Origin: Thermoplasmata archaeon
Lineage (GTDB): Archaea > Thermoplasmatota > DTKX01 > VGTL01
Assembly (NCBI GenBank): GCA_038851035.1
Contig: JAWCLH010000007.1
Span: 1-64,000, forward strand
Reading direction: 5' to 3'
Length of the DNA: 64,000 nt
The position numbers and the translations under genes are program-made. The stretch's first letter is position 1; each line of letters starts with the position of its first letter. Below the pieces are notes generated by a model, which saw only the letters and a program-made list of their open reading frames with translations, was not told the origin of the DNA and ran no database searches. This document shows positions 13,725 to 53,717 of this stretch, one piece after another.

Positions 13725-14429
13725 TCAATCCGTCCTCCACACCTCGATGGACCTCTCGCCGATTTTGTAGCCCATTGGGATTCTTGGGCTCCCAGGGGTC
13801 GCTATGGTCATCTGCCCCGTCTCAGGGTTCATCTCTATGAGCATGTCCGCGAGCTGGAGGATAGTCTTCACAGCCTTCTCCTCGTGGAGCTCGGGCTGGA
13901 TGAGCAGGAAACAGACGGCGCGGAAGCTCTTCGTCTTCGCCCTGAGGTAAGAGAGAAACCTATAGACGCCAGCCGGTGAGACATACATCAAAAGGGTGTC
14001 GATGGAGTCGAAAACGAGCCTCTGCTGGAGCATCCCCCTGCCCATGAACTCTCCCATCGCGGCGATTATGGTGTTGCTGAGCTTTGCGAAGTCGGCGACT
14101 GAGGCTACGTACTTCACCGTGGCCGTGTCTTGTAGGGAGGGGTTTGACTGGGGGGAGTAAATGTCGATGAATATGTACTTCCCCCAGTGCCCAGAGAGGT
14201 CGAGGGAGTGCTCCGCCATCTGGGCGATAATGTCCTCGGCGAACTCCTTCGTCGTCACGTAGGTCCCGGCCTCGCCGCTCACGAGGCCTGCGTGGAAGAA
14301 GGTCTGGGCAAGCAGCTCCCTACCCGATAGCGCGGGGCCACTGAGGAGGCAGAAGGAGCCTATACGAATTCCTCCATCTAGGGCGGCGTCAAGTTCGTCG
14401 AGGCCCGTCTTAGCCCTCAGGGTGATCAT
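13725..14429 (-). CDS. KaiC/RadA-like domain protein with degenerate Walker A
   Basis: 234 residues of RecA/KaiC fold. The P-loop position reads GPALSGRE (31-38), with Arg in place of the essential Lys; the Walker B-like strand is RLVFDSIDTLL (D141). ATP hydrolysis is therefore doubtful and a regulatory or partner role is more likely (inference). ATG 14429 is preferred because a G-rich ribosome-binding stretch precedes it; an in-frame start at 14465 would lengthen the overlap with the upstream gene. It overlaps the end of the KaiC-GTPase fusion gene by 20 bases, so the two are co-translated. Third gene of the operon. Confidence 0.82.
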   Translation of the reverse strand: MITLRAKTGLDELDAALDGGIRIGSFCLLSGPALSGRELLAQTFFHAGLVSGEAGTYVTTKEFAEDIIAQMAEHSLDLSGHWGKYIFIDIYSPQSNPSLQDTATVKYVASVADFAKLSNTIIAAMGEFMGRGMLQQRLVFDSIDTLLMYVSPAGVYRFLSYLRAKTKSFRAVCFLLIQPELHEEKAVKTILQLADMLIEMNPETGQMTIATPGSPRIPMGYKIGERSIEVWRTD

Positions 14430-15630
14430 GACGCCCCCCCTCACGCAGTGCCTCCGCCTCCGCAACCTCCATGAGTTTGCTGACTAGGACATCGAGCAGC
14501 TCAGGCACGCCCTTGCCCTCGGTCGCAACCGTCGGGATTATCGGTGTGCTCTCTGGCAACCTGAGCCTCTCCCTTATCACGGGCAACGGGAGCGCGCCAT
14601 CCCTATCCTGGTGGTTTGCGGCGACTATCAGGGGCAGGGAGTGGGCGTGGGTGAGCTGCATCATCGTTCTGGCGCGGTCGAAGCTCCCGACGTCCGCAGC
14701 ATTGATGACCAGGATTACAGCCACGGCCTCCTCAGCAAGGGTTCCAAGAATGGGGTCGAAGAGCTCCTGCCCCGGCGTTCCGTAGAGGTCGCAGGCAAAC
14801 CCCCTGTAGTCTAGGTAACCGTGGTCCATCGCTATGGTGGTCCCCATCCTGTCCACGCTAACCGCAGCGGTAGACATTGCCCTGACCAGCGTTGACTTGC
14901 CCGATTTATACGGGCCCGTGATGAGCACCTTGGGGAAGTAGACCCTGACACCGCCCGGCTTCAGGACCTTGACCGGCACCGCGAGCCTCTGGGTCAGCCC
15001 AGACCCTATCTTCTCTGCTAAAAGGAACTGCCTTACAAGTGATATCTCCTGCATCGGCCTAAGGCAGAGCACGGTGTCGAACTCAGCCTTTACCCTCTTC
15101 ACGCACTCGGGGTCGTAGTCCCACGTCGAGAAGAACACCATGACAGAGGCGCGGCGCTTCAGCTCCCTGACCAGCTCCAGGAACTCCTCGACACCGTCGC
15201 CCTGCATGTCCATGTAAGACGACATGCTGTCGACAAAGACCACCGAGTCCTGCTCGAGCGCGGGCTCGATTGTCCTGAGCACCCCCTCTAGGTCGAATGG
15301 GTCCTGGACGACGTACTTCTCGTTGGAGGGCCCCCCGCCATAGGACGAGTAGGAGTCGACTAGGTAGAGCCTCCCCTGCTCCTCCAGCCCGCGGAGGTCG
15401 TGCCCCATGAGTTCCGCCTCCCTCCTCACGGAGGAGGGGGGCTTGTTGTTCACGAGGTATATGGCGCGCCCTCGCCCCTTCAGCGAGCTGTTGATGGCGT
15501 GGATTCCAAAGGGGGTGGGGTCGAGACCGGGGGAGCTTATGAAAAGGACCGAAGACTTCTCCGGGAGTTCCTTCAGCCTCTCGTCAAAGACCCCGACGCC
15601 GAGCCTGAGCATTCGCTCACACCGCCTCAC
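14410..15630 (-). CDS. Fusion of a KaiC-like domain and a small Ras/MglA-like GTPase
   Basis: 406 residues. Residues 10-200 have the RecA/KaiC fold pattern (SSVLFISSPGLDP, DSVVFVDSMSSYM) but no usable Walker A. Residues 232-400 are a small GTPase of the COG2229/MglA kind: P-loop GPYKSGKST (239-247), switch I T264/T265, DLYGTPGQ (281-288) for G3, and NHQD (339-342) for G4. DxxGTPGQ is typical of the archaeal and bacterial branch. The start is GTG, overlapping the upstream TGA as GTGA; ATG 15612 is the alternative. Probably a nucleotide-switched signalling protein; target unknown. Confidence 0.88.
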   Translation of the reverse strand: MRRCERMLRLGVGVFDERLKELPEKSSVLFISSPGLDPTPFGIHAINSSLKGRGRAIYLVNNKPPSSVRREAELMGHDLRGLEEQGRLYLVDSYSSYGGGPSNEKYVVQDPFDLEGVLRTIEPALEQDSVVFVDSMSSYMDMQGDGVEEFLELVRELKRRASVMVFFSTWDYDPECVKRVKAEFDTVLCLRPMQEISLVRQFLLAEKIGSGLTQRLAVPVKVLKPGGVRVYFPKVLITGPYKSGKSTLVRAMSTAAVSVDRMGTTIAMDHGYLDYRGFACDLYGTPGQELFDPILGTLAEEAVAVILVINAADVGSFDRARTMMQLTHAHSLPLIVAANHQDRDGALPLPVIRERLRLPESTPIIPTVATEGKGVPELLDVLVSKLMEVAEAEALREGGRHDHPEG

Positions 15631-16301
15631 CTCAGGCCCGGCTGGACCGAGATGCCGTCCCGGCCGATATCCACGGCCTGCTCGCCCGTCAGGTGCTTGG
15701 TTCCCCTCATCTTGAGAACCTCGATGTACTTCCTACGCGCGTTCTCTTCCTTTGGGTAGGAGAGAACGAGAATCGAGTCGGCCATGTAGCCCTCGACCGA
15801 GTGGGGGATATCGGCGTAGCCCATCTCCGAGGTGAGGAAGGTGATGCAGTTGAAGGCCTTCATGAATGTGGTGAAGTCGTGGAGGAACTCCCTGTACTTC
15901 CTCTGGCTATCGAACGCGATTTTCATCACGGTCACGGGGTCCAGCACCAGCCGGTTCGGGGAGTAGCGCTCGACTTCGGCTTTCAGCGCGTTGAGCACCT
16001 CATCCGGGTTCTGGCGCATCGCGTCGCCCATGTCAATAAAAACCACCCGGCCCATCTCGACCAGGGACTGGTCGAAGAAGCTGAAGCTGGAAAGGAACTT
16101 CTGGACCACCCAGTTGGGCTCCGAGATTCCCGTGAGGTACATACCGGTCTCCCCCGCCCTCGCCCCGTGGAAAAGGCTCTGGACGGTCAGGGTGGTCTTG
16201 CCCGTCCCGGGCTCCCCGGCGACAAGGATGCTGGAAGGAAGCGGGAATCCGCCCTCTATCATCTCATCCAGCCCGGCTATTCCTGACTCGACCCTCTCCA
16301 A
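15627..16301 (-). CDS. KaiC/RadA family ATPase
   Basis: 224 residues, a single KaiC domain with intact Walker A GEPGTGKTT (29-37) and Walker B-like RLVLDPVTVM. The N-terminal VESGIAGLDEMIEGGFP is the classical KaiC/Sms entry motif. This is the only member of the three-gene operon with a complete ATP site. The start codon is TTG, supported by GGGAGGT six bases upstream; no in-frame ATG precedes the conserved N-terminus. A TATA-rich stretch (ATATATATAAGC, minus strand, about 16338-16350) probably starts the operon. Single-domain KaiC proteins often work in signalling or as archaellum-type regulators, but no archaellum gene is nearby. Confidence 0.9.
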   Translation of the reverse strand: MERVESGIAGLDEMIEGGFPLPSSILVAGEPGTGKTTLTVQSLFHGARAGETGMYLTGISEPNWVVQKFLSSFSFFDQSLVEMGRVVFIDMGDAMRQNPDEVLNALKAEVERYSPNRLVLDPVTVMKIAFDSQRKYREFLHDFTTFMKAFNCITFLTSEMGYADIPHSVEGYMADSILVLSYPKEENARRKYIEVLKMRGTKHLTGEQAVDIGRDGISVQPGLR

Positions 16302-16425
16302 TGGTAGACCTCCCGTGCAGGTAATTAAATAATGCTATGAGCTTATATATATTTATCCCGACGAACCGCCCCGCTCTATGTCCCGGTCGAGAAGGGGGCA
16401 GCTTGCGCAGGGCGGCAGGGCCCTT

Positions 16426-19561: not shown

Positions 19562-21895
19562 CTACTCTCCCCTGAACTCCGGCCGCCGCTTCTCCATGAA
19601 GGCTCGCATCCCCTCCGCCTTGTCCCGCGTGGTCATGCACTTCATCACAGTCTCCAGCTCGTACCTGAGGCCTTCTTCAAGACCCGTCTCGAGGGCCTTG
19701 TTTATCGCAGACTTCGCGAGTGCGACCGCAATGGGCGCGCCCGCGGCGACCGCATGCGCGAGGACCCTTGCCTCGGCCATCAGGCGCGCGGGCGGGACGA
19801 CGCGATCCACGATTCCGAGCTGGAGGGCGCGCTGAGCGTCAATGGTGTCGCCGGTGAATATTAGCTCGCACGCCCTCGACTTTCCAATGAGTCGGGTCAG
19901 CCTCTGCGTGCCCCCGAGGCCCGGGAAAATGCCTAGCCTGACCTCGGGGAGTCCCAGCCTCGCCCTCTCGGACGCTATTCTGATGTCGCAGGCGAGCGCT
20001 GTCTCCAGACCGCCGCCGAGGGCGAAGCCGTTTATTGCCGCGATGACCGGCTTTCCGAGCCCCTCGAGCCTTCTTAGGACGCGCTGGCCCAGCTCCGTGA
20101 ACTCACGGATTTTCTCGGGCGGCATGGAGCTCATGTCCTTTATGTCGGCGCCTGCGATGAATGCCCTGCCCTCGCCAGTCAGAATCACGGCCCTGACCTC
20201 GCGGTCCCCCTCCAGCTCCTCGAGAACCCCTTCAAGGTCCCTGAAGACCGCTCCATTGAGGGCGTTCAGCTGGTCGGGCCTGTTGACGAGGACGGTCGCT
20301 ATCTGCCCCTCCCTCTCCAGCCTGACCACTCTCGCCTTCCAGGGCAGGCCGCTCGCGGCCTGCCGCTCCAGAAGCGCGGGCACGGGGAAGGTCCCCCTCG
20401 ACCTCTCGCTCAGCCCCCTTACTAGGGCAAGTGTAGCCCCGAGGCCGAGCTCGTTCATCATCGCGAACGGTCCGACCCTCCAGCGCAGGCCGATTGTCGC
20501 GCCCGTGTCCGCGTCCTCTATAGTAGCCACGCCCTCCTCGACCATTTTTACGGCAACGCCGAAGACCACGGCCCTCAGACGGTCGGCGACGGCGCCGAAC
20601 CTCTCCTTGTCCACCTCTCCCGTCAACTCCCAAGGCTTCCCTGAGCCGGCCTGCTTCCTGAGAGACTCGGCCGGCTCGTAGAAAGGCCCGAGGGCCTTCG
20701 CGAGAGAGCTCTCGGCATGGAAGGCTATTGGAACGCCCGTGGCGTTCATCAGCTCGAAAGGACCCATCGTGATTCCAAAGGCCTCCTTCGCGGCCTCGTC
20801 AATCGTCCGGATGCTGGCCGCGCCCTCCTCCATGAGCCTGCAGGCCTCATTGAGCCACGGCACGAAGAAGCGGTTGACGGCGAACCCGGGTGCGTCCTTC
20901 ACGCGAATCGGTATCTTGCCGGTTATCCGCGCCAGCTCCATGAGTGCGGACACAACCTCCGGTGCGGTCCTTTCCCCTGCCACAACCTCGAGCAGCTGGT
21001 TGACCGCGGCCGGGTAGAAGTAGTGGAGGCCTGCGAAGCGCTCTGGCCTGTGCGTCACCTCTGCCATCTCGGTGATGCTGAGCGAGGACGTGTTGGAGGC
21101 AAGAATCGTGTCCGGCGCGCAGACCGCGTCCAGCTCGGCGAAGAGCTTCTTCTTCACCTCGAGGTCCTCGAAAACGGCCTCGACCACCAGCCCCGCGCCC
21201 TCCACGGCTTCCTTCATTGATGTGAAGCCCCGAATACGGGCCATCATTTTTTCTAGCTCGTCCGCCTTCATCTTGCCCTTTGCGACCCTCTTCTCAAGGG
21301 GCCCCCGAATTCTGGCGAGCCCCGCCTCAACGAATCTCTGCTCGATATCCAAGAGGGAGACCTCGAAACCCGCCTGCGCGAAGGACTGGGCGATTCCTGA
21401 GCCCATGTTGCCAGCGCCGACAACGCAGACCTTTTTGATTCCGGCGACTATGTCATCGGCGGTGCTGCGAGGTCTGAACCTGAAGAAGACCCTCCCGTCC
21501 TCGAGGGCGATTGTCCTGAACTCAACATCCATCCCGGGGGTCACGTCCTCGTATTTGACGCCGTCTATGCGCGAGGCCACTTTAATTCCGGTGCCCTCGA
21601 GCTCCACCACGCCCAGAACGAATGGTACGTCCCTCTCGAAGCCCATCGGGGCTCCCGCTAGCATCGCGCTGTAGTTCACGAGCTTGCCGAACTTTGGCAG
21701 GTCCACCCACTCTAGCTCGTCCGAGTTACATGAAGGACAGACCACTCGAGGGTGCCAATGGAGCTCGCCGCACTTTTTACATTTTGTCGTGGTGAGCCTC
21801 CCCCTCCTCAAGTTGTCGAAGAAGGGCTGAATTCTCGTGTTCTTCTCCCCCTGGAGGGGGTAGAAGTCCAGCGCCACTGGCAGGTCTATTTTCAT
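19562..21895 (-). CDS. DUF35 acyl-CoA-tether + 3-hydroxyacyl-CoA dehydrogenase + enoyl-CoA hydratase fusion
   Basis: 777 residues in three parts. 1-145: DUF35 with rubredoxin-like zinc ribbon (C39, C42, C53, C56) and OB fold. 150-520: 3-hydroxyacyl-CoA dehydrogenase, NAD site GAGNMGSG (160-167), His291 in GLHYFYPA, and tandem C-terminal helices. 525-777: crotonase fold with oxyanion segment FIAGADIKDM and catalytic Glu631 (GGGLE) and Glu651 (LPEVRLG). HAD-ECH fusions are common in archaea; the extra DUF35 domain is not usual. DUF35 normally accompanies a thiolase, and here the thiolase gene overlaps this one by ATGA, so a channelled thiolase-dehydrogenase-hydratase complex is plausible. Confidence 0.93.
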   Translation of the reverse strand: MKIDLPVALDFYPLQGEKNTRIQPFFDNLRRGRLTTTKCKKCGELHWHPRVVCPSCNSDELEWVDLPKFGKLVNYSAMLAGAPMGFERDVPFVLGVVELEGTGIKVASRIDGVKYEDVTPGMDVEFRTIALEDGRVFFRFRPRSTADDIVAGIKKVCVVGAGNMGSGIAQSFAQAGFEVSLLDIEQRFVEAGLARIRGPLEKRVAKGKMKADELEKMMARIRGFTSMKEAVEGAGLVVEAVFEDLEVKKKLFAELDAVCAPDTILASNTSSLSITEMAEVTHRPERFAGLHYFYPAAVNQLLEVVAGERTAPEVVSALMELARITGKIPIRVKDAPGFAVNRFFVPWLNEACRLMEEGAASIRTIDEAAKEAFGITMGPFELMNATGVPIAFHAESSLAKALGPFYEPAESLRKQAGSGKPWELTGEVDKERFGAVADRLRAVVFGVAVKMVEEGVATIEDADTGATIGLRWRVGPFAMMNELGLGATLALVRGLSERSRGTFPVPALLERQAASGLPWKARVVRLEREGQIATVLVNRPDQLNALNGAVFRDLEGVLEELEGDREVRAVILTGEGRAFIAGADIKDMSSMPPEKIREFTELGQRVLRRLEGLGKPVIAAINGFALGGGLETALACDIRIASERARLGLPEVRLGIFPGLGGTQRLTRLIGKSRACELIFTGDTIDAQRALQLGIVDRVVPPARLMAEARVLAHAVAAGAPIAVALAKSAINKALETGLEEGLRYELETVMKCMTTRDKAEGMRAFMEKRRPEFRGE

Positions 21896-23064
21896 TTCTT
21901 ATCCCTCCCGTAGACGAGGATGCTGTGAACGTTGGCCGAGCCGCTCAGGTTGTGGCTTAGGGCTCTCTCCGCACCCGCGACCAGCCTCTTTTGCGGAACG
22001 AGTGAGTTGAATTGCCAGAATATCTCGATGGCCTGCCCGATGCCTGTGGCGCCGAGAGGGTGGCCGCAGCCGAGCAGACCGCCGCGGGTGTTGACCGGGA
22101 TTTTCCCGCCGATATCCGACTGCCCATCTTCGATGAATTTCCCGCCCTTCCCCTTCTCGCAGAACCCGAGCTCCTCGTACTCCATTATCTCCGATATTGT
22201 GAAGCAGTCATGGGTCTCGGCGAAGTCGAGGTCCCCTGGCTCTAGCCGGGCGCTTCTGTAGGCCTCTTTTGCCGCCGCCCTGAGGGGCTCCCAGGTTGCC
22301 ATGTCCCTGTGCCTGTATATCAGATTCCCCATTGCGCACTGGCCGCTGCCGATTATGTAGGCCGGGGTGTCGCAGTACTTCTTTGCCTCCTCGGCCGGTG
22401 CAAGAAGCACCGCGGCCGCGCCGTCGGTGATTCCTGAGCAGTCGAGCAGCCTGAGAGGGGGGGAGACCATTAGAGAGTTCGATATCTCGTCGAGCGTGTA
22501 CTCCCTCTGGAAGTGCGCGTAAGGGTTTGTGGAGGAGAACCTGTGGTTCTTCTGGGAGACGAGCGAGAGCTGCTCCCTCGTGGTTCCGTACTTCCTCATG
22601 TGCTCCTGCGCCACCATTGCGAAGAAGGGTGGGGCCGAGAAGCCCATCACTCCCTCCCAGTCCCTGTCAAGGACCGCCGCCATGGAGGCCTGGGCCTCGA
22701 GCATGTTGGGGAGGTTCATCTTCTCCGCCCCGACCGCCAGAGCGAGGTCGCTCATTCCGGTCGCTATCGCCATGTAGGCGACGCGAATCGCGCACTGGCC
22801 CGAGGCGCAGGCGAGCTCGGTCCTCATCGTCACTTTGCGCGGCGTGATGCCGAGCGCCTCGGCCACCATTGGCGCCACATGGGCCTGAAATGTGAACCTC
22901 TCGGGCTGGGCGGCGCCCACGATTAGGCTGTCGATGTCTTTCTTGTCGAGATTGCGCGTCGTGTCGAAGAGCATCTTCCCCGCCTCCTGCACCATCTCGC
23001 GCCAGGAGGCGCTGCGCACCCCCCACTTCGACAGGCCCGCGCCGACTATCGCGACCTTCCGCAT
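21892..23064 (-). CDS. Acetyl-CoA C-acetyltransferase (archaeal thiolase)
   Basis: 390 residues. Nucleophilic C86 lies in TELACASGQ, His285 in AETHDCF, and the second Cys/His pair in GCGHPLGATG (C333, H335), all as in the archaeal/SCP-x type thiolase family that requires a DUF35 partner. It condenses or cleaves acyl-CoA and acetyl-CoA. Upstream, a TATA-like box (about 23094-23104, minus strand) and GGGGGAT before ATG support the start. Its stop codon overlaps the ATG of the DUF35-HAD-ECH gene. No HMG-CoA synthase is adjacent, which argues for fatty-acid or butyrate-type metabolism rather than the mevalonate route. Confidence 0.93.
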   Translation of the reverse strand: MRKVAIVGAGLSKWGVRSASWREMVQEAGKMLFDTTRNLDKKDIDSLIVGAAQPERFTFQAHVAPMVAEALGITPRKVTMRTELACASGQCAIRVAYMAIATGMSDLALAVGAEKMNLPNMLEAQASMAAVLDRDWEGVMGFSAPPFFAMVAQEHMRKYGTTREQLSLVSQKNHRFSSTNPYAHFQREYTLDEISNSLMVSPPLRLLDCSGITDGAAAVLLAPAEEAKKYCDTPAYIIGSGQCAMGNLIYRHRDMATWEPLRAAAKEAYRSARLEPGDLDFAETHDCFTISEIMEYEELGFCEKGKGGKFIEDGQSDIGGKIPVNTRGGLLGCGHPLGATGIGQAIEIFWQFNSLVPQKRLVAGAERALSHNLSGSANVHSILVYGRDKK

Positions 23065-24608: not shown

Positions 24609-27600
24609 CTAGTGCTCCGTCCTCCTCCGGGCCAGCACGACCCCCGCCGAAATCAGCACGAGCAGTACCACCACCAGAGCCCCCAGCTCCACCGGCCCGA
24701 GCCCGCCCGCCTTCGTCGGGGTAGGGGCGGGGGTCCTGACGGTCAGATCCTGAGTGACGACGCTGTTCCCGGACATGTCGGTCAGGTTGAGCCTGTAGTG
24801 GTAGGTTTTCGATGCGGAGAGGTTGGTCAGGGTCACGCTGTGGACCCTGCCCGCCACGGGGGACTCGGCCCGGCGGCCATAGGAGCCGTTCTGGCCGTAC
24901 TCCACCCTGCACAGCGTTTTTTCGGTGGTGTATATCACCAGCGTGACGGATTTCTCCGTGACCCTCGAGGGTGTTACGTTCAGCACCCCCGGGCCGAGCT
25001 CATCCACGGCGTCGAAGGCCCGGGAGCCCGCCGCCAGAGGGGTTGAGTTGCCCGCGAGCTCGGCGAGGTAGGTGTAGGAAGCGCTGTGGATTCCCGTCTG
25101 GTCCGTCGAGTTGAAGGGCACCGAGAACGACCCGCGGTTCTCGCCCGGGCTCAGGTTCCAGGGCACCTCGCTCTCCCCGGCCACATTTCCCTGTGGGTCG
25201 TAGACCGTCAGCACGAGCCTGCCCACGGTCGGCCTGTTAGCCTCTATCGTCACAGAAACGTTCAGGGTCTCGCCGGCCTCGTGCTCCCCGCCCTCCAGCT
25301 GCGCCTCAACGAATCTGGCAGAGTAGCCTGAGACGTCGAAGGGGACGCTGCCGTTGAAGCCGCCGAAGGAGTAGAGGATGTGGTAGGTTCCGGACCTGAG
25401 CTCCGGAACCGGCACCCGAATCGTGGTCGTGCCGTAGTGGGAGAGGGAGCCGCTGTACCACGGCGTCCTCAGGGTCAGGAGGCCCTGAACGGTCGACTCC
25501 GCGGTTACCCGTATCTCCTCGCCTATCTCGTAGACCTGCTTGTCGGTGGTCAGGACCACGTCTCCGGCGGGCCTGACACGGACATAGAGCGAGTTGATAT
25601 ATAGCGACCTTCCGGAGGATGTGTAGACCGAGTAGAAGAGCTTCTCCCCTCCCGCTTCGACGACCGGCACATCGAAAACGAGGGTGGTATTACCATGTGC
25701 GCTCAGATTGAAGGGCCGGACTTCGTCAAAGCTACCATACTTGACGCGGGAGAAAAGCTCGACGTCGAAGGCCTTCAGATTAGCGACTTCGATGGAGAGC
25801 CGCGCCACATCCCTGGCTCTGTAGAGGTTCCTGTCAAGGGAGGCATTCACGGCCACCTTCATGCCCCTGACGATGATTCTCTGCTCATGCCGGACCCCTT
25901 CCATCGTGAAGAATGCTTTGTAGCCCCTCTCCTCGAGGTCGTCGGGGAAGGTGAAGTTGAAGAACACCCCGGCCTCCTCGCCCGGCGGCACCCAGGCGTA
26001 GCCGTTTTCCTCATAGATGCCCGGAATCGTGAGGTTCACCTCGGCCTTCCCGACTAGGTCCCCGATGTTCCTCACCCTGACCTCCACGCTCGCGGGCTCG
26101 CCGATAAAGTATATGTTGTAGCCCGGCAGGGAGACGAGCTCGAACTCTGGGGGGAGGACGCCCCACTCGCCGGAGCGGGTCATGTATATCTTTCTGCTCA
26201 CATCCCTGTTCACGAGAACCGTTGCGCTCCCCTCGAAATCAATGTATCCCTCGGCGCCCACGAGCATAGTGTAGCTGCGCGAAGGGGCCTCGACCCTGAA
26301 CGCGCCGGCGGCGTCGGTGGTAGTGTTGACGAAGAGCGGCTCGGGGTAGCCGGAGTAGAGCGATATGCTCGCTCCCCCGACGGGTCGGCCAGAGACCTTG
26401 TCCAGCACAACGCCGCTCAGGTTGCCGGTGCCATTCTCCAGTACGAGATAGAAATCAATGTGCGTGGTCCTAATCCAGGGAACGCTCACATTGAGGCTCG
26501 TGTTCAGGTACCCCTCTGACGAAACCTCTATCGCGCACACGCCCTTCGGCAGCGTCGCAGTAAAAACCCCGTTCTCGTCCGTGGTGACGCTCAGGCCGCC
26601 AAGATTGAGGGTCGCGCTCAGGGGCTCGCCCGTGACCATGTCCAGAACGCGGCCGGTGAGGTTGCCTGTGGAGGGGGTGGGCCTCGGCATCAGATAAAAG
26701 TCGAGTCGCAGCCCGGTGCCCCTGTATACCCACACGCCGGGGCTCTGGCCGCGCGTGTCGAGCCCGTCGTGGTTGTCGGTCCCGCGCACTATTAATTCGT
26801 GGTTGCCGTGGTAGTATGTGAATGAGTAGGAGCCGTTGGCGTCCGTGGTGACGCGGTCCCAGCCGTCGTACCAGATGGTGATTCCCGGCACGGGGAGTCC
26901 GGAGACGACGTCGTATACGGTTCCCGATAGCGTGCCCTTTCTGGGCTCGATGTAGAAGTCAAGGTTGAGGTTCCGGCCGCGGTAGATGCACTGGCCCACC
27001 GTCTGGCCGCGTGTGTCGATGCCGTCGTGGTTGTCGGTCCCGCGCACTATTAATTCGTGGTTCCCGTGGTAGTATGTGAATGAGTAGGAGCCATTCCCGT
27101 CCGTGGTGACGCGGTCCCAGCCGTCGTACCAGACTGTGATTCCGGGGACGGGGAGTCCGGAAATGACATCATAGACTGTTCCCGAGAGCGTGCCCTTCCG
27201 GGGCTCGAGGTAGAAGTCCAGTGTGAGGGTGCGGCCGCGGTAAATGTACTGGCCAACGGTCTGGCCGCGCGTGTCGAGGCCCTCGTGGCCGTCGGTCCCG
27301 CGCACTATTAATTCGTGGTTCCCGTGGTAGTAAGTGAAGGAGTAGGAGCCATTCCCGTCCGTGGTGACGCGGTCCCAGCCGTCGTACCAGATGGTTATTC
27401 CCGGCACGGGGAGTCCGGAGACCGTGTCATAGACCTTTCCGCTCAGGGTCCCTTTTCTGGGCGAGAGATGGAAATCCGCCGTTGTATTTCCACCCGCGTA
27501 TATCACCCAGCCGGTGTGCCCCAATGAGTCCAAGCCGTCGTAATCGTCTGTTCCGCGGACGATGAGGCGGCACACGCCCGCGCGGTACTGGAAGGAGTAG

Positions 27601-30600
27601 AACCCGGTCTCATTCGTCGTGACGCGGTCCCAGTCGTCGTACCATATTGTGATTCCCTCCACAGGCTGGCCGCTCACGAGGTCATACACGCGCCCGGTCA
27701 GATTGCCCGTGGTCACTGGGGGCGTGTAGCCCTGCGGGGTGAGGCGGAAGTAGAGCGGCGGGGAGCGCGCGGTCACCAGAACGGTGGTCACCAGGGTGTC
27801 GTAGCCTGTTTTGCTGATCTCGACGTCGTGGAGGCCCCTCGAGAGGGTGACTGTGAAGCCCCCGTTTCCGTCCGTTGTGGCGGAGGTGGAGCCGTCGAAG
27901 ACCACGCTCGCGCCCGGAAGGCCGGCGGTCTCGTTCAGGTCATTGACCGTGCCCGATACTGTAAACGCATTGGGCTCGAGGTAGAAGTCCAGCTCCGAGG
28001 CCCTGCCCGCGAGGTGGATGCCTGTGGTGAGGGGGTCGTAGCCCGTCTTCGAGAGGCTCACGGTGTGGTAGCCCGTCCCAAGATTCTTGGAATAGCGGCC
28101 CCCGGCGTCGGTTGTGGCGGTCAGGGAGCCGTCGAAGGTTAGCTCCACGCCCCCGATGGGCGCCCCGGTGACTAGGTCCCGCACGGTTCCGTTGGCGTAG
28201 CTCAGGTTGAAGGAGGGGGGAGTGAGGTAGAACACGTAGTCAGATGAGTTGGCGGCGACGTGAATTCCCGTGGTGAGGGGGGAGTAGGAGGGGTTGACCA
28301 GCTCCACATTATGATAGCCCGTGGAGACCGTCATGCTGAACCTTCCATCGGGGCCTGTGGTCGTGTTGTGGGTCGAGTCGATGCTCACCCTGACATTTGG
28401 TATCGGAAACTCATAGATGAGGTCCAGGACAACACCCGCTATCGGTCTGGTGAGGGGCTTCAGGAAGAAGTCGTAGCCCGAGCTCCTCTTGGCGACATGA
28501 ACGCCCGTCGAGATGCCCTCGTAGCCCTCGAGGGCGAGGGAGACGGAGTGGTAGCCGACCGAAAGGGCTATGGCGTAGCCGCCGTCCGGGCCGGTGGTCG
28601 TGTTGCTGGTCCCGTCGAAGCTCAGCGCGACGCCGGCCAGCGGGAAGCCGTACACTAGGTCCCTGACGGTGCCTGATATCTCCTCGCCCATCGGTTTTAG
28701 ATAGAAATCCATATCAGAGCTTCGGGCCGCCACATGAACCCCGGTCCTCACGCTCTCGTAACCCTCCGCTGAGACCTCCACGCTGTGGTGGCCCGTCCCG
28801 AGCAGGGCCCTGTACCGGCCCTCTGAGTCAGTTGTGGCGTTGACAACTCCGTCGAAACTGACCATTGCCCGGGATATCGGGCTCTCGTCCACCAGATTCC
28901 TGATAACACCCGTCGTCCAGTTCGTCGTGGGGAAGAGGAAGAAGTCCAGGTCGGAGGTGCGCTGGGCGACGTAGATCCCGGTCTCGAGCCCCGCGTAGCC
29001 CCCGGCGGAGACGGAAACGCTGTGGTGGCCGACCGCGAGCGCCACAGTGTAGCGCCCGCTCCCGTCGGTGAGGACCGCTGGGCCCCCGTCGAAAACGAGC
29101 GACGCGCCGGGAATCGGGGTTCTGTAGACTATGTCCAATACAGTCCCGCTCTGGAGGTCGGCGTCGAGGTATAGGTCAAGTGTGGTCATCCTGCCCGAGC
29201 AGACGATGGCTTCGGTGGGTGCTGATTGGGAGCCCCCCAGCTCGGCCATCACGCGGTACTTACCCGGAGGCAGGAGAATCGAGTAGCGCCCGTCATCCTC
29301 CGTATCAACGAAAATCTCGTTCGCGCTCAGGTTCACGAGCACCGAGGCGCCGCCGACCCCCTTCTCGCTCAGGAGCGTCAGCACCCTCCCCTCGATGCCC
29401 TGCCTCCCAATGTTGAGCGCGCCCGCGCCCCCCGCGGTGGTGTAGATGTCCCTCGTGTTGTTCGTATACGCATAGACCGGAATCATGACCCGGGCGCTGT
29501 TGTACCCCTGGGCCTTTGTGACCACCTTGTAGTAGGCCCCGCGCAGCTCGAGCGAGTAGGAGCCATCGGCGTCCGTTGTTGCGCTGCGCACCTCCCCCAG
29601 CGCCTCGAAGGTGATGGTCGCTCCGGGGATGCTCCCGTTCGTGAGCCAGTCCGCGAGCCTCCCCGAGACCCTGCCCTCCCCGCCCGTGTAGTTTACCCTC
29701 GCGGAGCCCATGCCCGTGTCCACGAGGGCCTCGGCTCTCGCGACGAGGAGGTAGCTGCCGGAGAGGGCCGTGCGCGGCAGAGAGAGGGTGAAGGTCTCGG
29801 TCGCGGGGGCGCCGTAGAGCTCCACCTCGCGGCTCTCCGAGGCGGCGGAGTTACCCACCGGGTCGAGCGCCGAGAGGGTGAGGCTCGCGATGCCCAGAGC
29901 GGATGGGGAGGAGACCGAGACAGTGACGTTGATTCCCTCCCCCTCGGCATAACCTCCCCTGTCCGCCGAGACCGACACCTTTATTGATGGAGTGAAGCCC
30001 CAGATGCCCTTCGAGGCGACGCCGAGCTGGCGGCCCGACTCGTCATAGAACCAGGCCCAGAAGCGACCCGTGTCGGCGTTCTTTCTCTCATAGACGAGGT
30101 CAATGCTGCCGCCGGCGGGGACCGCGACCCTCCTCTCGTCGAAGACCACGTGGCTCCAGTCGTATTTGACTGTCACGTTCTGGTCCGTGGAGAGATAGCT
30201 GCGGATGTGAATCGTGAAGTTCACGCTCGAGCCCCGGGGCACATGCTCTTTATCAGAAGTTATGTCGAAGAACATACCGGAGAAGTTGTAGAGGAAACCG
30301 CGGGGATTCGCTCTGTACATGGACACGGCGAGCCTCTGGGCGTCGAAGCCCTGCGAGACCACTTTTCCCGAAGAGTCTTTGAGATTGTAGTCCAGCCACC
30401 AGATGCCGGGGGTTGATGGCGCGGTGAGGCTCAGGTTGAGGGTCGTGGAGGAGCCGGGGGAGAGGCTCACAGACTGTTCAAGAGACGCGACAATGGCGCG
30501 GTCCGGGCTGACGGTCGTTATGGAGACCTTGCTAGCCGCGACCGGGCCCCTGTTCTTCAGCGGCACCTCGACCGACGCGGAGGAGCCGGGGGCTGCTTCC

Positions 30601-32483
30601 GTCAAGGGGGCGGGGTCCACGGCCCAGGCCACGAGGTCTTGAATCAGGCGCTTCCCGTCGGCCGAGAGCGCGTTGTGGGAATGGGCCCAGTCCTCGTATG
30701 CGGAGAGGACCACGACCCTCCCTCTGCCCCACTCGTAGGCCAGCATCGCCGGCTGGGCGTTTTTCGTTCTCGAGAGCACGACCGTGGCGCTCTCGGGCCA
30801 GCTCGTGAAGTAGCCGTCCACATTTATGCTGGGCGAGGGGCCGGATTGGCCGGCGAGGAAGGGCATGTATGTGGTGATTCCCACTGAAGCGTACTGGCAG
30901 CTCTGGTCCTCTATCCAGCCATATCCCTTCAGATTCCCGGGAAGCGCCCCGTAGTCGTTGCCGTACTGCTGCGCCAGCGCTATTATCGTTCCGCCGGCCT
31001 CCAGATAATCCTCGAGCTTTGATTTGAAGCTCCGGGAGCCGTCGAGGCCGTAGAGCCCTCCCGATGGGATAATCAGGACCGGGTGGCACACGAGGCGGTC
31101 GAGCTCGCAGTTTACGTCAACAAATGTCACAGGCTCTCCGATGTTAGTGAGGAGCCAGCCAGACTCACTCCAGAATCCGTTCCGCAGGACCGCCACCCTG
31201 GGCAGCTCCAGAATTTCAAGGAAACAGTCCTGATGGGCCTTCATTATGCCGTAAATGGCCGACGGGTCCTCGTTGAGGGTCTGGTTCACTATGCGCATTG
31301 AGAAGGGCTTTACCGTAGTGTCGGATATAGAGGTGCTGGGCTCGAGGCCGATGTTCTTCACCGACACCGTCATGGTATAATTGTCCATCGCCTTTAGCGC
31401 CTCCTCGGGAAGGGAGGCCACGAGCGCCGGATAGACCTCCATGAAAATCTCGTACATCATGCCCGCCAGCGCCAGCACGTCGGGCCTCCAGGCTGAGACC
31501 ACATTCTTATTTACCTCATCGGACTGGCTCTTGATGTGTTGCATCATCATTACTATCTGGGTGGAGTTCCGGATATCCGCGATTCGCTCGTATGCATTGA
31601 AGAGGCTCTGGTCCCGGACTATGACGCCGCTGGAAACGTCCTGGTTGTCATCTGGATGGTCGTTGCCTGGGGTTGTGGGCGGCCTATAAGGCGGTTTGGG
31701 CGTGGGCTTGGGGGGCTTCTGCGGCTTGGGTAGCTTGGGTGGCTTCGGGGGCTCGGGCGGTTTGGGAGGCTCAGGCGGTTTGGGGGGCTCGGGCGGCTTT
31801 TGCTTTGGCTTAGTGTGGTTCCACGCCCATTTAATAAAGTCCACGACCTCATCAACGAATTCGTTAATGCTCTCGCCGGCGTTCTCGAGAAGGGTCTTCT
31901 GGGCGCCCCTCGTGTTTTGGGCGACCCAGAGGTCCATCTGATACTTTACTTCAAGCGCTATGAACATGTTCTTGTAGTTCCCCTTGAAGTTGTCCCAGCA
32001 CTCCTTGTCGGTGTCAAGAGGAAACTCCTGCTTGACCTTATATAGAGGGTTTTCGGGGCGGATGGTGATGTCGTTGTAGGCACTGGCAATGTCCTTCGGG
32101 CTCAGGCCGGCCTCCCGGCACCTCTGGTACGCGGCGGCGACCCTCTTCTGCTGCGCGCTCATCGCCAGCTCGCCGAAGTAGACGCCCGTGTCCTTGGCCC
32201 ATGTGAGCCAGCCGAGGCTCGGGTTTATCTGGTCCACGCCCTTGTCCATTATGTAGGACAGGACGTCGTTCTTCATTCCCTCCGTGTCGCCCGCGTTCAT
32301 GTGAATCAGAAGGTTGTAGCCGTTGGATATCTCGCTCCCGTGCTCCACGGAGGGCGGAAGCGAGGGCATGGGCGAGGTCTCGATCTTCCCCTGCGCGTCC
32401 TCCTCGACCAGAGCGCTGAGGCCCGTGAGGAGCAGAAGGCCCGCAGCCAGCACAGTTGACAGCCCGCGCAATATACCAACCAT
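24609..32483 (-). CDS. Giant cell-surface protein with 14 carboxypeptidase-regulatory-like repeats
   Basis: 2624 residues, secreted and anchored at the C-terminus. Order: signal peptide (ILRGLSTVLAAGLLLLTG); an alpha-rich domain to about 225; a Pro/Lys stalk of KPPEPPKPPEP type (about 226-266); a GATase/ThuA-like alpha/beta domain (about 427-617); CARDB/Ig-like domains; 14 CarboxypepD_reg-type beta-sandwich repeats (about 935-2105) of about 75-86 residues; more Ig-like domains; a fibronectin-III-like domain; and a TM helix followed by ARRRTEH. Three central repeats are nearly identical at DNA level. Start 32483 has GGGAG before it and a TATA-like box near 32546-32557; an in-frame start at 32621 lies inside that promoter region. 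Likely adhesion or S-layer-associated; ligand unknown. Confidence 0.88.
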   Translation of the reverse strand: MVGILRGLSTVLAAGLLLLTGLSALVEEDAQGKIETSPMPSLPPSVEHGSEISNGYNLLIHMNAGDTEGMKNDVLSYIMDKGVDQINPSLGWLTWAKDTGVYFGELAMSAQQKRVAAAYQRCREAGLSPKDIASAYNDITIRPENPLYKVKQEFPLDTDKECWDNFKGNYKNMFIALEVKYQMDLWVAQNTRGAQKTLLENAGESINEFVDEVVDFIKWAWNHTKPKQKPPEPPKPPEPPKPPEPPKPPKLPKPQKPPKPTPKPPYRPPTTPGNDHPDDNQDVSSGVIVRDQSLFNAYERIADIRNSTQIVMMMQHIKSQSDEVNKNVVSAWRPDVLALAGMMYEIFMEVYPALVASLPEEALKAMDNYTMTVSVKNIGLEPSTSISDTTVKPFSMRIVNQTLNEDPSAIYGIMKAHQDCFLEILELPRVAVLRNGFWSESGWLLTNIGEPVTFVDVNCELDRLVCHPVLIIPSGGLYGLDGSRSFKSKLEDYLEAGGTIIALAQQYGNDYGALPGNLKGYGWIEDQSCQYASVGITTYMPFLAGQSGPSPSINVDGYFTSWPESATVVLSRTKNAQPAMLAYEWGRGRVVVLSAYEDWAHSHNALSADGKRLIQDLVAWAVDPAPLTEAAPGSSASVEVPLKNRGPVAASKVSITTVSPDRAIVASLEQSVSLSPGSSTTLNLSLTAPSTPGIWWLDYNLKDSSGKVVSQGFDAQRLAVSMYRANPRGFLYNFSGMFFDITSDKEHVPRGSSVNFTIHIRSYLSTDQNVTVKYDWSHVVFDERRVAVPAGGSIDLVYERKNADTGRFWAWFYDESGRQLGVASKGIWGFTPSIKVSVSADRGGYAEGEGINVTVSVSSPSALGIASLTLSALDPVGNSAASESREVELYGAPATETFTLSLPRTALSGSYLLVARAEALVDTGMGSARVNYTGGEGRVSGRLADWLTNGSIPGATITFEALGEVRSATTDADGSYSLELRGAYYKVVTKAQGYNSARVMIPVYAYTNNTRDIYTTAGGAGALNIGRQGIEGRVLTLLSEKGVGGASVLVNLSANEIFVDTEDDGRYSILLPPGKYRVMAELGGSQSAPTEAIVCSGRMTTLDLYLDADLQSGTVLDIVYRTPIPGASLVFDGGPAVLTDGSGRYTVALAVGHHSVSVSAGGYAGLETGIYVAQRTSDLDFFLFPTTNWTTGVIRNLVDESPISRAMVSFDGVVNATTDSEGRYRALLGTGHHSVEVSAEGYESVRTGVHVAARSSDMDFYLKPMGEEISGTVRDLVYGFPLAGVALSFDGTSNTTTGPDGGYAIALSVGYHSVSLALEGYEGISTGVHVAKRSSGYDFFLKPLTRPIAGVVLDLIYEFPIPNVRVSIDSTHNTTTGPDGRFSMTVSTGYHNVELVNPSYSPLTTGIHVAANSSDYVFYLTPPSFNLSYANGTVRDLVTGAPIGGVELTFDGSLTATTDAGGRYSKNLGTGYHTVSLSKTGYDPLTTGIHLAGRASELDFYLEPNAFTVSGTVNDLNETAGLPGASVVFDGSTSATTDGNGGFTVTLSRGLHDVEISKTGYDTLVTTVLVTARSPPLYFRLTPQGYTPPVTTGNLTGRVYDLVSGQPVEGITIWYDDWDRVTTNETGFYSFQYRAGVCRLIVRGTDDYDGLDSLGHTGWVIYAGGNTTADFHLSPRKGTLSGKVYDTVSGLPVPGITIWYDGWDRVTTDGNGSYSFTYYHGNHELIVRGTDGHEGLDTRGQTVGQYIYRGRTLTLDFYLEPRKGTLSGTVYDVISGLPVPGITVWYDGWDRVTTDGNGSYSFTYYHGNHELIVRGTDNHDGIDTRGQTVGQCIYRGRNLNLDFYIEPRKGTLSGTVYDVVSGLPVPGITIWYDGWDRVTTDANGSYSFTYYHGNHELIVRGTDNHDGLDTRGQSPGVWVYRGTGLRLDFYLMPRPTPSTGNLTGRVLDMVTGEPLSATLNLGGLSVTTDENGVFTATLPKGVCAIEVSSEGYLNTSLNVSVPWIRTTHIDFYLVLENGTGNLSGVVLDKVSGRPVGGASISLYSGYPEPLFVNTTTDAAGAFRVEAPSRSYTMLVGAEGYIDFEGSATVLVNRDVSRKIYMTRSGEWGVLPPEFELVSLPGYNIYFIGEPASVEVRVRNIGDLVGKAEVNLTIPGIYEENGYAWVPPGEEAGVFFNFTFPDDLEERGYKAFFTMEGVRHEQRIIVRGMKVAVNASLDRNLYRARDVARLSIEVANLKAFDVELFSRVKYGSFDEVRPFNLSAHGNTTLVFDVPVVEAGGEKLFYSVYTSSGRSLYINSLYVRVRPAGDVVLTTDKQVYEIGEEIRVTAESTVQGLLTLRTPWYSGSLSHYGTTTIRVPVPELRSGTYHILYSFGGFNGSVPFDVSGYSARFVEAQLEGGEHEAGETLNVSVTIEANRPTVGRLVLTVYDPQGNVAGESEVPWNLSPGENRGSFSVPFNSTDQTGIHSASYTYLAELAGNSTPLAAGSRAFDAVDELGPGVLNVTPSRVTEKSVTLVIYTTEKTLCRVEYGQNGSYGRRAESPVAGRVHSVTLTNLSASKTYHYRLNLTDMSGNSVVTQDLTVRTPAPTPTKAGGLGPVELGALVVVLLVLISAGVVLARRRTEH
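26690..27473 (-). repeat. Three near-identical 258-bp tandem repeats within the surface-protein gene
   Basis: The marker CGCGCACTATTAATTCGTGG occurs at 26783, 27041 and 27299, exactly 258 bases (86 codons) apart, and the whole units differ at few positions. Each encodes one beta-sandwich repeat (GLPVPGIT-x-WYDGWDRVTTD...). A diverged fourth unit follows to about 27730. The period is a multiple of three, so unit gain or loss keeps the frame. Confidence 0.88.
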
Positions 32484-32579
32484 TACATCAGCTCCCTTGT
32501 CCGCTCCGCATGGAACGGAATGGAGCCGTATCGATAATTGGCAGTATAATAATTTTTGGATTGGTGGTCTTCTAGTGGG

Positions 32580-32609
32580 GGCTGTCGGAGAAGTGGGCGT
32601 GGCGCCCGC
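32580..32609 (+). repeat. 30-bp imperfect direct repeat, copy 1, near tRNA-Arg
   Basis: 28 of 30 bases match 32715-32744. On the minus strand the unit includes the last bases of the tRNA acceptor stem, the CCA and downstream flank. Confidence 0.7.
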
Positions 32610-32699
32610 GCCCATGCGCACAAATTGCGGCTCGCATACGCTCCCGAAATTTGTGGACTAGAACGAGAGCCCTCTCTGCCGTGTCGGGCGCTCGTTCAG

Positions 32700-44517: not shown

Positions 44518-44808
44518 CTACTCCTCCTCCCCCACCCCCGAGGGTGACAATACACTCTCCTCAAGAGGCCCTCGGAGGATTTTCCCGTCCACGAGCTTCA
44601 CCACCTCCAGCTTTTTCTCGATTTTTTCCAGCTCCTCGAGGCACCTCCTCGAGAGCCTGTTCCCCTCTTCGTAGAGCCGGAGAGCCTCCTCGAGCCCGAC
44701 CTCCCCCACCTCGAGCGTCCTGACAATGTTCTCTAGTTTGGTCAGGGCCTCCTCGAAGCTCAGCCTCTTCTCCCTGCCCTTTTTCCCTTCATCTCTGTAA
44801 ATATCCAT
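44518..44808 (-). CDS. xseB: Exodeoxyribonuclease VII small subunit
   Basis: 96 residues. The conserved XseB core LSFEEALTKLENIVRTLEVGEVGLEEALRLYEEGNRL is present, flanked by a basic N-terminus and a longer acidic tail. XseB multimers coat the large subunit to form the nuclease. It overlaps the end of xseA by 49 bases, as in many bacterial xseAB operons. ExoVII is a bacterial-type enzyme found in only some archaea, which suggests past transfer. Confidence 0.93.
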   Translation of the reverse strand: MDIYRDEGKKGREKRLSFEEALTKLENIVRTLEVGEVGLEEALRLYEEGNRLSRRCLEELEKIEKKLEVVKLVDGKILRGPLEESVLSPSGVGEEE

Positions 44809-46076
44809 CCCTCCCTCCTCGTGCTTGTGCCCTTGACGGCGCTCACGACCTCTCCTCCGGAGAGAACGGTCAGGAGCTCCTCGCCCCTCCGCAGCGAGGC
44901 GGGGTCGCGGACGGCTCGCCCCGTGGACCGTCTGAGCGTTATGCTGTAGCCCCGCGCCAGCACTTGCCCAGGGGACATAGCATTGAGCATTGACGAGAGC
45001 CTGAGTAGACGCTCCCTCTTCCTCGCGAGCAGGTTGCCCACGGCCCTTCCGAGGGCGCGTGTGAGCTCGTCCGTCCTGAGCCGCGCCTGGTCGAAGCGGC
45101 TGATGAGCTCCCGGTCCAGCGCCCGCCGGAGGTCGGCGATGCGCCCTTCGAGCTCGGCCTTGTCGGGTACGACCATCTCAGCCGCCTTTGACGGCGTCGG
45201 GGCTCGGGCGTCGGCGGCGAAGTCGGCAATGGTGAAGTCGGTCTCGTGCCCCACGGCCGACACCACCGGAACTCTTGAGGAGCGAATCGCCCTTGCGACT
45301 TTTTCTTCGTTGAATGGCCAGAGGTCCTCGAGTGAGCCTCCTCCCCGAGCCAGGATAATCACGTCCGGCCCCTCCTCTTCAAGAGAGTTGAGGAGACGGA
45401 TGGCCGCAACGAGCTCGTCCGCGGCGCCCTCACCCTGCACCCTCGCGGGCGCGAGGAGGAGGTGTGCGTTCGGGAAGCGGCCGAATAGAATTCGCTTGAT
45501 GTCCTGAAGCACCGCGCCGGTCGGTGAGGTCACCACCCCGACTATCCTAGGGAGGAATGGCAGGGGGCGCTTGATTTTGGGGTCGAAGAGGCCCTCCTCC
45601 TCGAGCTTCCTCTTCAGTTGCTCGAAGGCGAGAAAGAGCTCCCCGACGCCCTCCGGCCTGGCCTCGGCAACGCGGAGCTCGTACTCACCCTTCGCCGCGT
45701 AGACGATTACACCGCCCCTGACCAGGAGCTTCATCCCGTTCGTGATGGTGAACCTCAAGGCGCGATTGACTTCGCGAAACATCACACACCTGAGGACCGC
45801 CGCCGCGTCCTTAAGGTCGAAGTACATATGGCCGGACTGGTGGTGGTGGAAGTTCGAGACCTCGCCTCTCACCCACACATCGCGCAGGAGGGGGTCGCCC
45901 TCGAGAACGCTGGATATGTATCGCGTTAGCTCTGTTACTCCAAAAACTCGCGGGCCGGGCGGCGCGCCCGCGGCCCCGCTCCCTCCCGGTCCCTCCGGTA
46001 CCCGTCCTCTTTCCTCGAGCCGGTCCCCTCCGTACGAGAGCAGCGTGGCGTTCCTGAGGGACCCCCGCCGGCGCAT
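44760..46076 (-). CDS. xseA: Exodeoxyribonuclease VII large subunit
   Basis: 438 residues. OB domain: FGVTELTRYISSVLEGDPLLRDVWVRGEVSNF through HMYFDLKD. The catalytic domain has PTGAVLQDI, the signature RGGGSLEDLWPFNEE and VGHETDFTIADFAADARAPTPSKAAE. Together with XseB it degrades single-stranded DNA from both ends. The N-terminal about 45 residues before the OB domain are low-complexity. It follows the lipoprotein gene by 6 bases and overlaps xseB downstream, so the three form an operon. Confidence 0.95.
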   Translation of the reverse strand: MRRRGSLRNATLLSYGGDRLEERGRVPEGPGGSGAAGAPPGPRVFGVTELTRYISSVLEGDPLLRDVWVRGEVSNFHHHQSGHMYFDLKDAAAVLRCVMFREVNRALRFTITNGMKLLVRGGVIVYAAKGEYELRVAEARPEGVGELFLAFEQLKRKLEEEGLFDPKIKRPLPFLPRIVGVVTSPTGAVLQDIKRILFGRFPNAHLLLAPARVQGEGAADELVAAIRLLNSLEEEGPDVIILARGGGSLEDLWPFNEEKVARAIRSSRVPVVSAVGHETDFTIADFAADARAPTPSKAAEMVVPDKAELEGRIADLRRALDRELISRFDQARLRTDELTRALGRAVGNLLARKRERLLRLSSMLNAMSPGQVLARGYSITLRRSTGRAVRDPASLRRGEELLTVLSGGEVVSAVKGTSTRREGWIFTEMKGKRAGRRG

Positions 46077-53627: not shown

Positions 53628-53654
53628 CGCCTGCCCGACCGGATATCGTCGGAG

Positions 53655-53666
53655 GATATTAATATC
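53655..53666 (-). promoter_or_regulatory. Palindromic TATA-like box of the mutSL operon
   Basis: GATATTAATATC, self-complementary, 28-39 bases before the mutS ATG. It lies between the divergent mutS and the 53718 gene. Confidence 0.4.
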
Positions 53667-53717
53667 TCGCGGCAATCAGGTTTATTAGCCCTCAGATGCA
53701 TTATCGTCGGGGAGACC

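Follow-up and report, generated by a model that had tools for sequence, protein, structure and literature searches.

A KaiC Pseudo-ATPase Fused to an MglA-Type GTPase in a Conserved Archaeal Gene Neighbourhood

Introduction

GTPases of the MglA family have as their partner MglB, a protein of the Roadblock/LC7 family, and bacterial members of the MglA family control polarity. The survey of this family by Wuichet and Sogaard-Andersen (2014; PMC4316618), in which proteins over 240 aa were left out, did not find conserved neighbours in the archaeal Group 4. A second known arrangement is the actinobacterial conservon (CvnA-D), in which a CvnD-type GTPase is found with a Roadblock protein (CvnB), a histidine kinase and CvnC.

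As signalling currencies, Ras-like GTPases and ATPases of the KaiC/RecA fold are usually considered separately. Makarova et al. 2017 reportedly described signalling hubs of archaeal KaiC-like proteins, some of them inactivated, and Elp456 is a ring of RecA-fold pseudo-ATPases. Fusions of iKaiC to REC, HalOD1 and similar domains were listed by Galperin et al. (2018; PMC5847659), where we found no fusion to a GTPase. In TRAPP, Ragulator and their Asgard relatives (PMC10933270; PMC2253512) a small GTPase is combined with proteins of the Roadblock/longin and V4R/TRAPPC3 folds; the V4R/TRAPP paper does not report on gene neighbourhoods.

Here we analyse an operon from a Thermoplasmata archaeon (contig JAWCLH010000007.1), within a stretch of 64,000 nucleotides that we call the window. 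Three related kinds of system are already known, namely conservons, MglA-MglB switches and KaiC hubs that include inactivated members, and the locus resembles the last in having inactivated KaiC domains that are fused to other signalling domains. What we found undescribed in the searchable papers, a scope that leaves Makarova et al. 2017 outside, is the combination of an inactivated KaiC-MglA-type GTPase fusion with a second degenerate KaiC and a Roadblock protein. The two classes of NTPase are thereby joined in one conserved archaeal unit.

Results and Discussion

Operon Organization

Three genes on the minus strand, g1, g2 and g3, span positions 16301 to 13725, and all three open reading frames are present where the original prediction had placed them. 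The first (g1, 15627..16301) encodes a single-domain KaiC-family ATPase of 224 aa, as judged from Pfam and homologue identities. On the basis of Pfam, alignment and structural models, g2 (14410..15612) encodes a protein of 400 aa in which a KaiC pseudo-ATPase domain is fused to an MglA-type GTPase, and g3 (13725..14429) a KaiC-fold protein of 234 aa with a degenerate P-loop. A candidate operon promoter and ribosome-binding site occupy 16308..16354 on the same strand: inspection of the sequence alone suggests a TATA-like element, AAATATATATAA, running from 16354, and a Shine-Dalgarno GGAGGT (16313-16308) lies 6 nt upstream of the TTG with which g1 starts. The most likely start of g2 is the ATG at 15612, 14 nt past the end of g1, which we prefer because it aligns with the starts of the orthologues; an alternative GTG at 15630 would give a longer protein and a GTGA overlap with g1. 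Thus, of the two overlaps initially proposed, the 20-base one between g2 and g3 is present, whereas the GTGA depends on the less likely start.

The KaiC Domains

The intact Walker A attributed to one of the KaiC domains was found in g1 as GEPGTGKTT (16217-16191), and Pfam KaiC (PF06745) matches this protein at 1.5e-41. The same family matches residues 5-163 of g2 at 2e-10. Here, however, the original prediction needs amending: it rightly recognized a KaiC-like domain fused to a GTPase, as the Pfam matches to both halves indicate, but missed that the KaiC half (residues 1-205, 14998..15612, minus strand) has lost its Walker A. In the window protein SSPGLDPTPFG occupies that place, and the Walker A lysine is absent from this protein and from all 44 homologues compared in the alignment. 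Since this half has no P-loop, the operon holds two degenerate KaiC domains and not one, and its content is one intact KaiC, two degenerate KaiC domains and one GTPase. Superposition of the AlphaFold model of the KaiC half on PH0284, a KaiC-family protein of known crystal structure (2dr3), gives a TM-score of 0.83 by target length with an rmsd of 2.5 A, and the half is accordingly modelled as retaining the KaiC fold despite the loss of the P-loop. The final KaiC strands of the model lead directly into the strand that opens the GTPase domain.

The second degenerate domain, g3, is matched by PF06745 at 6e-16 and carries GPALSGRE (14339-14316) at the P-loop. The arginine that had been reported in place of the P-loop lysine is therefore real, but we reject its reading as the key change: lysine and arginine alternate across the g3 family (GxxxxG[KR][E/D/S]), which makes it a lineage variant. 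Where a hydroxyl residue is expected after this position, most members have E or D, with S in some, so that hydrolysis by g3 is doubtful family-wide and not because of the arginine alone. Its model (pLDDT 96; TM 0.81 to PH0284) likewise predicts a KaiC fold, and the KaiC half of g2 and g3 are homologous across the whole domain (hhalign 99.8%). Three g3-like proteins surround a Roadblock-g2 pair, next to pilin-like ORFs, in one Methanobacteriaceae locus (L082:4694-8569), and two of them have a nearly regular P-loop, GPPKVGKS.

Like ArlH/FlaH of the archaellum, g1 and g3 consist of a single KaiC-fold domain, and a FlaH structure is among the structural matches of g3; unlike it, they score far under the 215-bit cut-off of the ArlH profile (31.7 bits for g1 and 47.9 for g3), and no archaellum genes were seen nearby. 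A circadian KaiC was ruled out, as each protein has one KaiC domain and not the CI plus CII pair; scores of g1 to g3 are also far below the KaiC equivalog cut-offs. The PAXNEB (Elp4) family is matched by 13 of 28 g3 members.

The GTPase Domain

The second half of g2 (residues 221-388, 14449..14952, minus strand; Pfam, alignment and tree) matches Arf/MMR_HSR1 over residues 228-379. Alignment places G1 (GPYKSGKST) at 14916-14890, G3 (GTPGQ) at 14781-14767 and G4 at 14616-14605, where NHQD stands for NKxD with its lysine lost, all on the minus strand. The G1 motif is kept as GPxxxGK[ST] in 45 of 45 sequences (the window protein and 44 homologues). The window protein (P0002) has GTPGQE in G3 and GTT, with its threonine, in G2, as do most homologues, and this is the signature of MglA Groups 2-5, which have GTPGQ instead of DxxGQ in G3 and Thr for Arg in G2 (PMC4316618). 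From these motifs the domain is assigned to the MglA family. Since the protein is 400 aa long, and not a single domain of 150-240 aa, we speak of a GTPase domain of MglA type and not of a classical MglA.

Phylogenetic analysis supports the same placement. A single clade (support 99/92, 45 rows) unites the G domains of the fusions and lies within an archaeal clade that adjoins bacterial MglA-type GTPases, including the conservon-type GTPases of Streptomyces. With conservons the locus shares a CvnD-type GTPase associated with Roadblock in a conserved small operon, as well as the missing G4 lysine of CvnD. In contrast, KaiC-fold proteins are found here instead of a histidine kinase and CvnC (DUF742), neither of which was seen at the g2 loci, and the GTPases of the two systems fall in separate clades. 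Membership of the Rup family was discarded, given that the G3 aspartate is missing (glycine stands there, in GTPGQ) and that a Roadblock gene is coupled to g2 in relatives. Stand-alone MglA-type GTPases adjoining a Roadblock gene also occur (family f20; L064:9134-9942 and L065:70-849), and these neighbour the fusion clade in the GTPase tree. In the window's genome P0002 is the sole strong MglA-type match, at 460 bits, the next GTPase-region match scoring under 26 bits.

Distribution and Conserved Neighbourhood

A first search recovered full-length g2 from 13 of 41 genomes, our own included, plus one truncated copy. Over the phylum the g2 search was positive in 35 of 293 genomes, a count that includes one genome (G029) with stand-alone GTPases only, and 88% of the sampled genomes lack g2. 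A scan of named genomes extends full-length g2 to at least eight archaeal lineages: among the matches listed are Methanosarcinales/ANME-2/Methanoperedens, Archaeoglobaceae, Methanobacteriaceae, Hecatellales and Thermoplasmata, together with Micrarchaeota, Aenigmatarchaeota and Parvarchaeota/Nanoarchaeota.

Profile searches within 1.4 kb of g2 found g3 in 40 of 44 loci, a Roadblock/LC7 gene in 39 and both in 36, the loci not being independent, as many are from Methanosarcinales. These neighbours are always on the strand of g2, the identity of the Roadblock proteins is confirmed by Pfam, and the g2-g3 junction is overlapping or within 10 nt in 27 of 39 cases. The commonest order is g3-g2-Roadblock (20 loci), followed by Roadblock-g2-g3 (11); g1-g2-g3 is found in two relatives besides the window, g1-g2-Roadblock-g3, with or without a further KaiC gene, in three, and the remaining orders are single. 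The widespread core is thus g2, g3 and Roadblock/LC7, in the first two of these orders. In common with MglA-MglB systems and MglA Groups 2-5, the GTPase has GTPGQ in G3 and threonine in G2 and, in 39 of 44 loci, a coupled Roadblock gene; it differs in being part of a protein of about 390-415 aa that also contains a KaiC pseudo-ATPase, and in having a constant second KaiC-fold partner, and the window operon has no Roadblock gene.

This conservation bears directly on whether the three genes are simply KaiC paralogues brought together by accident, each acting independently and g2 being a GTPase on its own. The window's genome does contain more than 20 KaiC domains, and g1 has a much lower rate of evolution than its two neighbours (90% identity to relative G001, against 61% for g2 and 68% for g3), both of which would fit such independence. 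Nevertheless, in 40 of the 44 loci, which come from several archaeal phyla, g2 and g3 lie side by side, mostly as overlapping genes, an association far beyond chance; we therefore reject a chance cluster and regard independent paralogues as highly improbable. A dedicated module, as originally proposed, is upheld by the retained gene order, which is conserved in related genomes, and by the MglA affiliation of the GTPase. Its supposed composition is not: an active ATPase, a GTPase and a pseudo-ATPase do not form the fixed unit, because the core is g2, g3 and Roadblock, and g1 accompanies g2-g3 only in one Thermoplasmatota clade (families f1, f3, f13 and f21). Within it g1 is conserved at about 90% identity in G001 and 55-70% in f3, f13 and f21. 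A core role for g1 was ruled out, since KaiC neighbours elsewhere look generic, scoring about 50-125 against the g1 profile versus about 440 for a true g1.

V4R genes lie near g2 in seven of the 44 loci. The overall set of parts, a small GTPase with Roadblock/longin and V4R/TRAPPC3 folds, is that of TRAPP and Ragulator, but this minority presence of V4R, the proposed KaiC scaffold and a GTPase of MglA type, not Rab or Rag, distinguish the module. In Archaeoglobaceae and Hecatellales protoglobin and V4R genes adjoin g2-Roadblock (L080:1846-2955 and L085:6003-7544), which suggests a heme or small-ligand input.

Dispersed Roadblock and V4R Genes

No Roadblock gene is adjacent to the window operon at its locus. 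The genome has two, one of them side by side with a V4R gene on contig C4. This Roadblock protein shares 51% identity with its operonic counterpart in Archaeoglobaceae, and it retains the Asp-Gly pair that has been described for the MglB partners of Groups 2-5. The V4R-Roadblock pair recurs in G001 (69% identity for V4R and 82% for Roadblock) and in G002 (48% and 60%); g2 was not detected in the latter genome, which is 88% complete, so the pair has some independent role.

The families f13 and f21 show how these parts may be arranged together. In both, the Roadblock gene sits between g2 and g3, and the full operon runs from a coiled-coil KaiC protein through V4R (f21), g1, g2, Roadblock and a small membrane protein to g3. 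The window's genome has a homologue of the coiled-coil KaiC protein (37% identity over 695 aa) alone on contig C23. With V4R-Roadblock on C4 and g1-g2-g3 on C7, the parts of the f13/f21 operon are therefore present but dispersed. This long coiled-coil protein, which has a C-terminal g3-like KaiC domain, lies at L052:110-2644, L053:4075-5283 and L055:4622-6238 and, in the window's own genome, at L045:1387-3597. Roadblock and V4R can be named as likely partners of what would otherwise be an orphan operon.

The departure of Roadblock raises the question of whether the GTPase still works in this lineage. The NKxD motif of G4 is found in most homologues and its lysine is lost in few, notably in the window lineage, where GTP specificity is consequently not assured. 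The three g1-g2-g3 genomes without an operonic Roadblock have NHQD, NYSD and NFSD, against a lysine kept in nearly all others. Thus, Roadblock control may have been lost and G4 decayed, leaving an inactive scaffold, or one of altered specificity, with g1 as the only NTP-driven part. We consider this improbable, given that the G1 P-loop, G2 Thr, G3 GTPGQ and G4 Asp are all intact and that V4R-Roadblock is still encoded elsewhere in the genome. Moreover, an [NT]KxD motif in G4 is not required in MglA Groups 2 and 3, which also lack the lysine, and CvnD9 hydrolyses GTP (PMC4316618), so that loss of the lysine does not prove inactivity.

Proposed Function

The explanation that we favour, and hold to be reasonably probable, is a GTPase switch of the MglA/MglB type that is tethered to a scaffold of KaiC pseudo-ATPase domains, of which the window carries the Thermoplasmatota version of a conserved archaeal module. 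Contacts of the KaiC/RecA type would bring g3 and the KaiC half of g2 together in a hetero-oligomeric scaffold, as happens with other RecA-fold pseudo-ATPases such as Elp4/5/6, and the GTPase would be displayed on it. A dimer of Roadblock would bind this GTPase in the manner of MglB with MglA, promoting hydrolysis and/or exchange, and input to the switch may come from the V4R, protoglobin or receiver-domain sensors that some lineages encode close by. In the window lineage the Roadblock gene would have left the operon and g1 been added to it, which probably links the switch to ATP-driven dynamics. The locus may then show what many inactivated archaeal KaiC proteins are for, if dead KaiC domains serve to scaffold a GTPase switch, and it is relevant to how sets of GTPase, Roadblock and V4R occurred in non-Asgard archaea.

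A more far-reaching scenario, which we advance only tentatively, is that of an ancient and separate archaeal GTPase machine, a hetero-oligomeric ring of dead KaiC domains (g2 and g3) with built-in MglA-type GTPases and Roadblock/V4R regulators. If true, it would be the KaiC-based counterpart, in non-Asgard archaea, of MglAB and TRAPP/Ragulator. Such a ring would recall Elongator Elp4/5/6 in having RecA-fold subunits without a working P-loop, although Elongator has no GTPase and the assembly of the g2-g3 ring is inferred.

As to the output of the tethered switch, our best guess is type IV pili or a cue for polarity. In a sharper form of this reading, the module would be a regulator of adhesion or of type IV pili, much as MglA/SofG is in Myxococcus: its KaiC scaffold would dock on the pilus ATPase in the way that ArlH docks on ArlI, and the state of the GTPase would set where or when the machine runs. 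Genes for a PilB-like ATPase and TadC adjoin the module in three loci (L059, L060 and L061), DPANN and Methanobacteriaceae loci have pilin-like ORFs on either side of it, and KaiC families and the Roadblock arCOG02603 occur in archaeal T4P loci (Makarova et al. 2016; PMC4858521). However, pilus genes are missing from the surroundings of the window locus and of most of the 44 loci, and the few cases may be partly due to chance. The pilus output is therefore only a lead, and this narrower version rather unlikely.

Other Features of the Window

Reading by eye suggests several further genes of interest in the window. A 777-aa protein (19562-21895, minus strand) appears to combine a zinc-ribbon/OB-like N-terminus with 3-hydroxyacyl-CoA dehydrogenase and enoyl-CoA hydratase in an unusual domain order, and a thiolase gene (21892-23064) adjoins it. 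A 2670-aa surface-type protein (24609-32621, minus strand) has many carboxypeptidase-regulatory-like repeats and a proline-rich stretch, and a 1702-aa protein (54727-59835, plus strand) consists nearly entirely of TPR-like repeats. Finally, apparent bacterial-type XseA, MutL and MutS genes lie at 44760-46076 and 49234-53675 (minus strand) of this archaeal genome.
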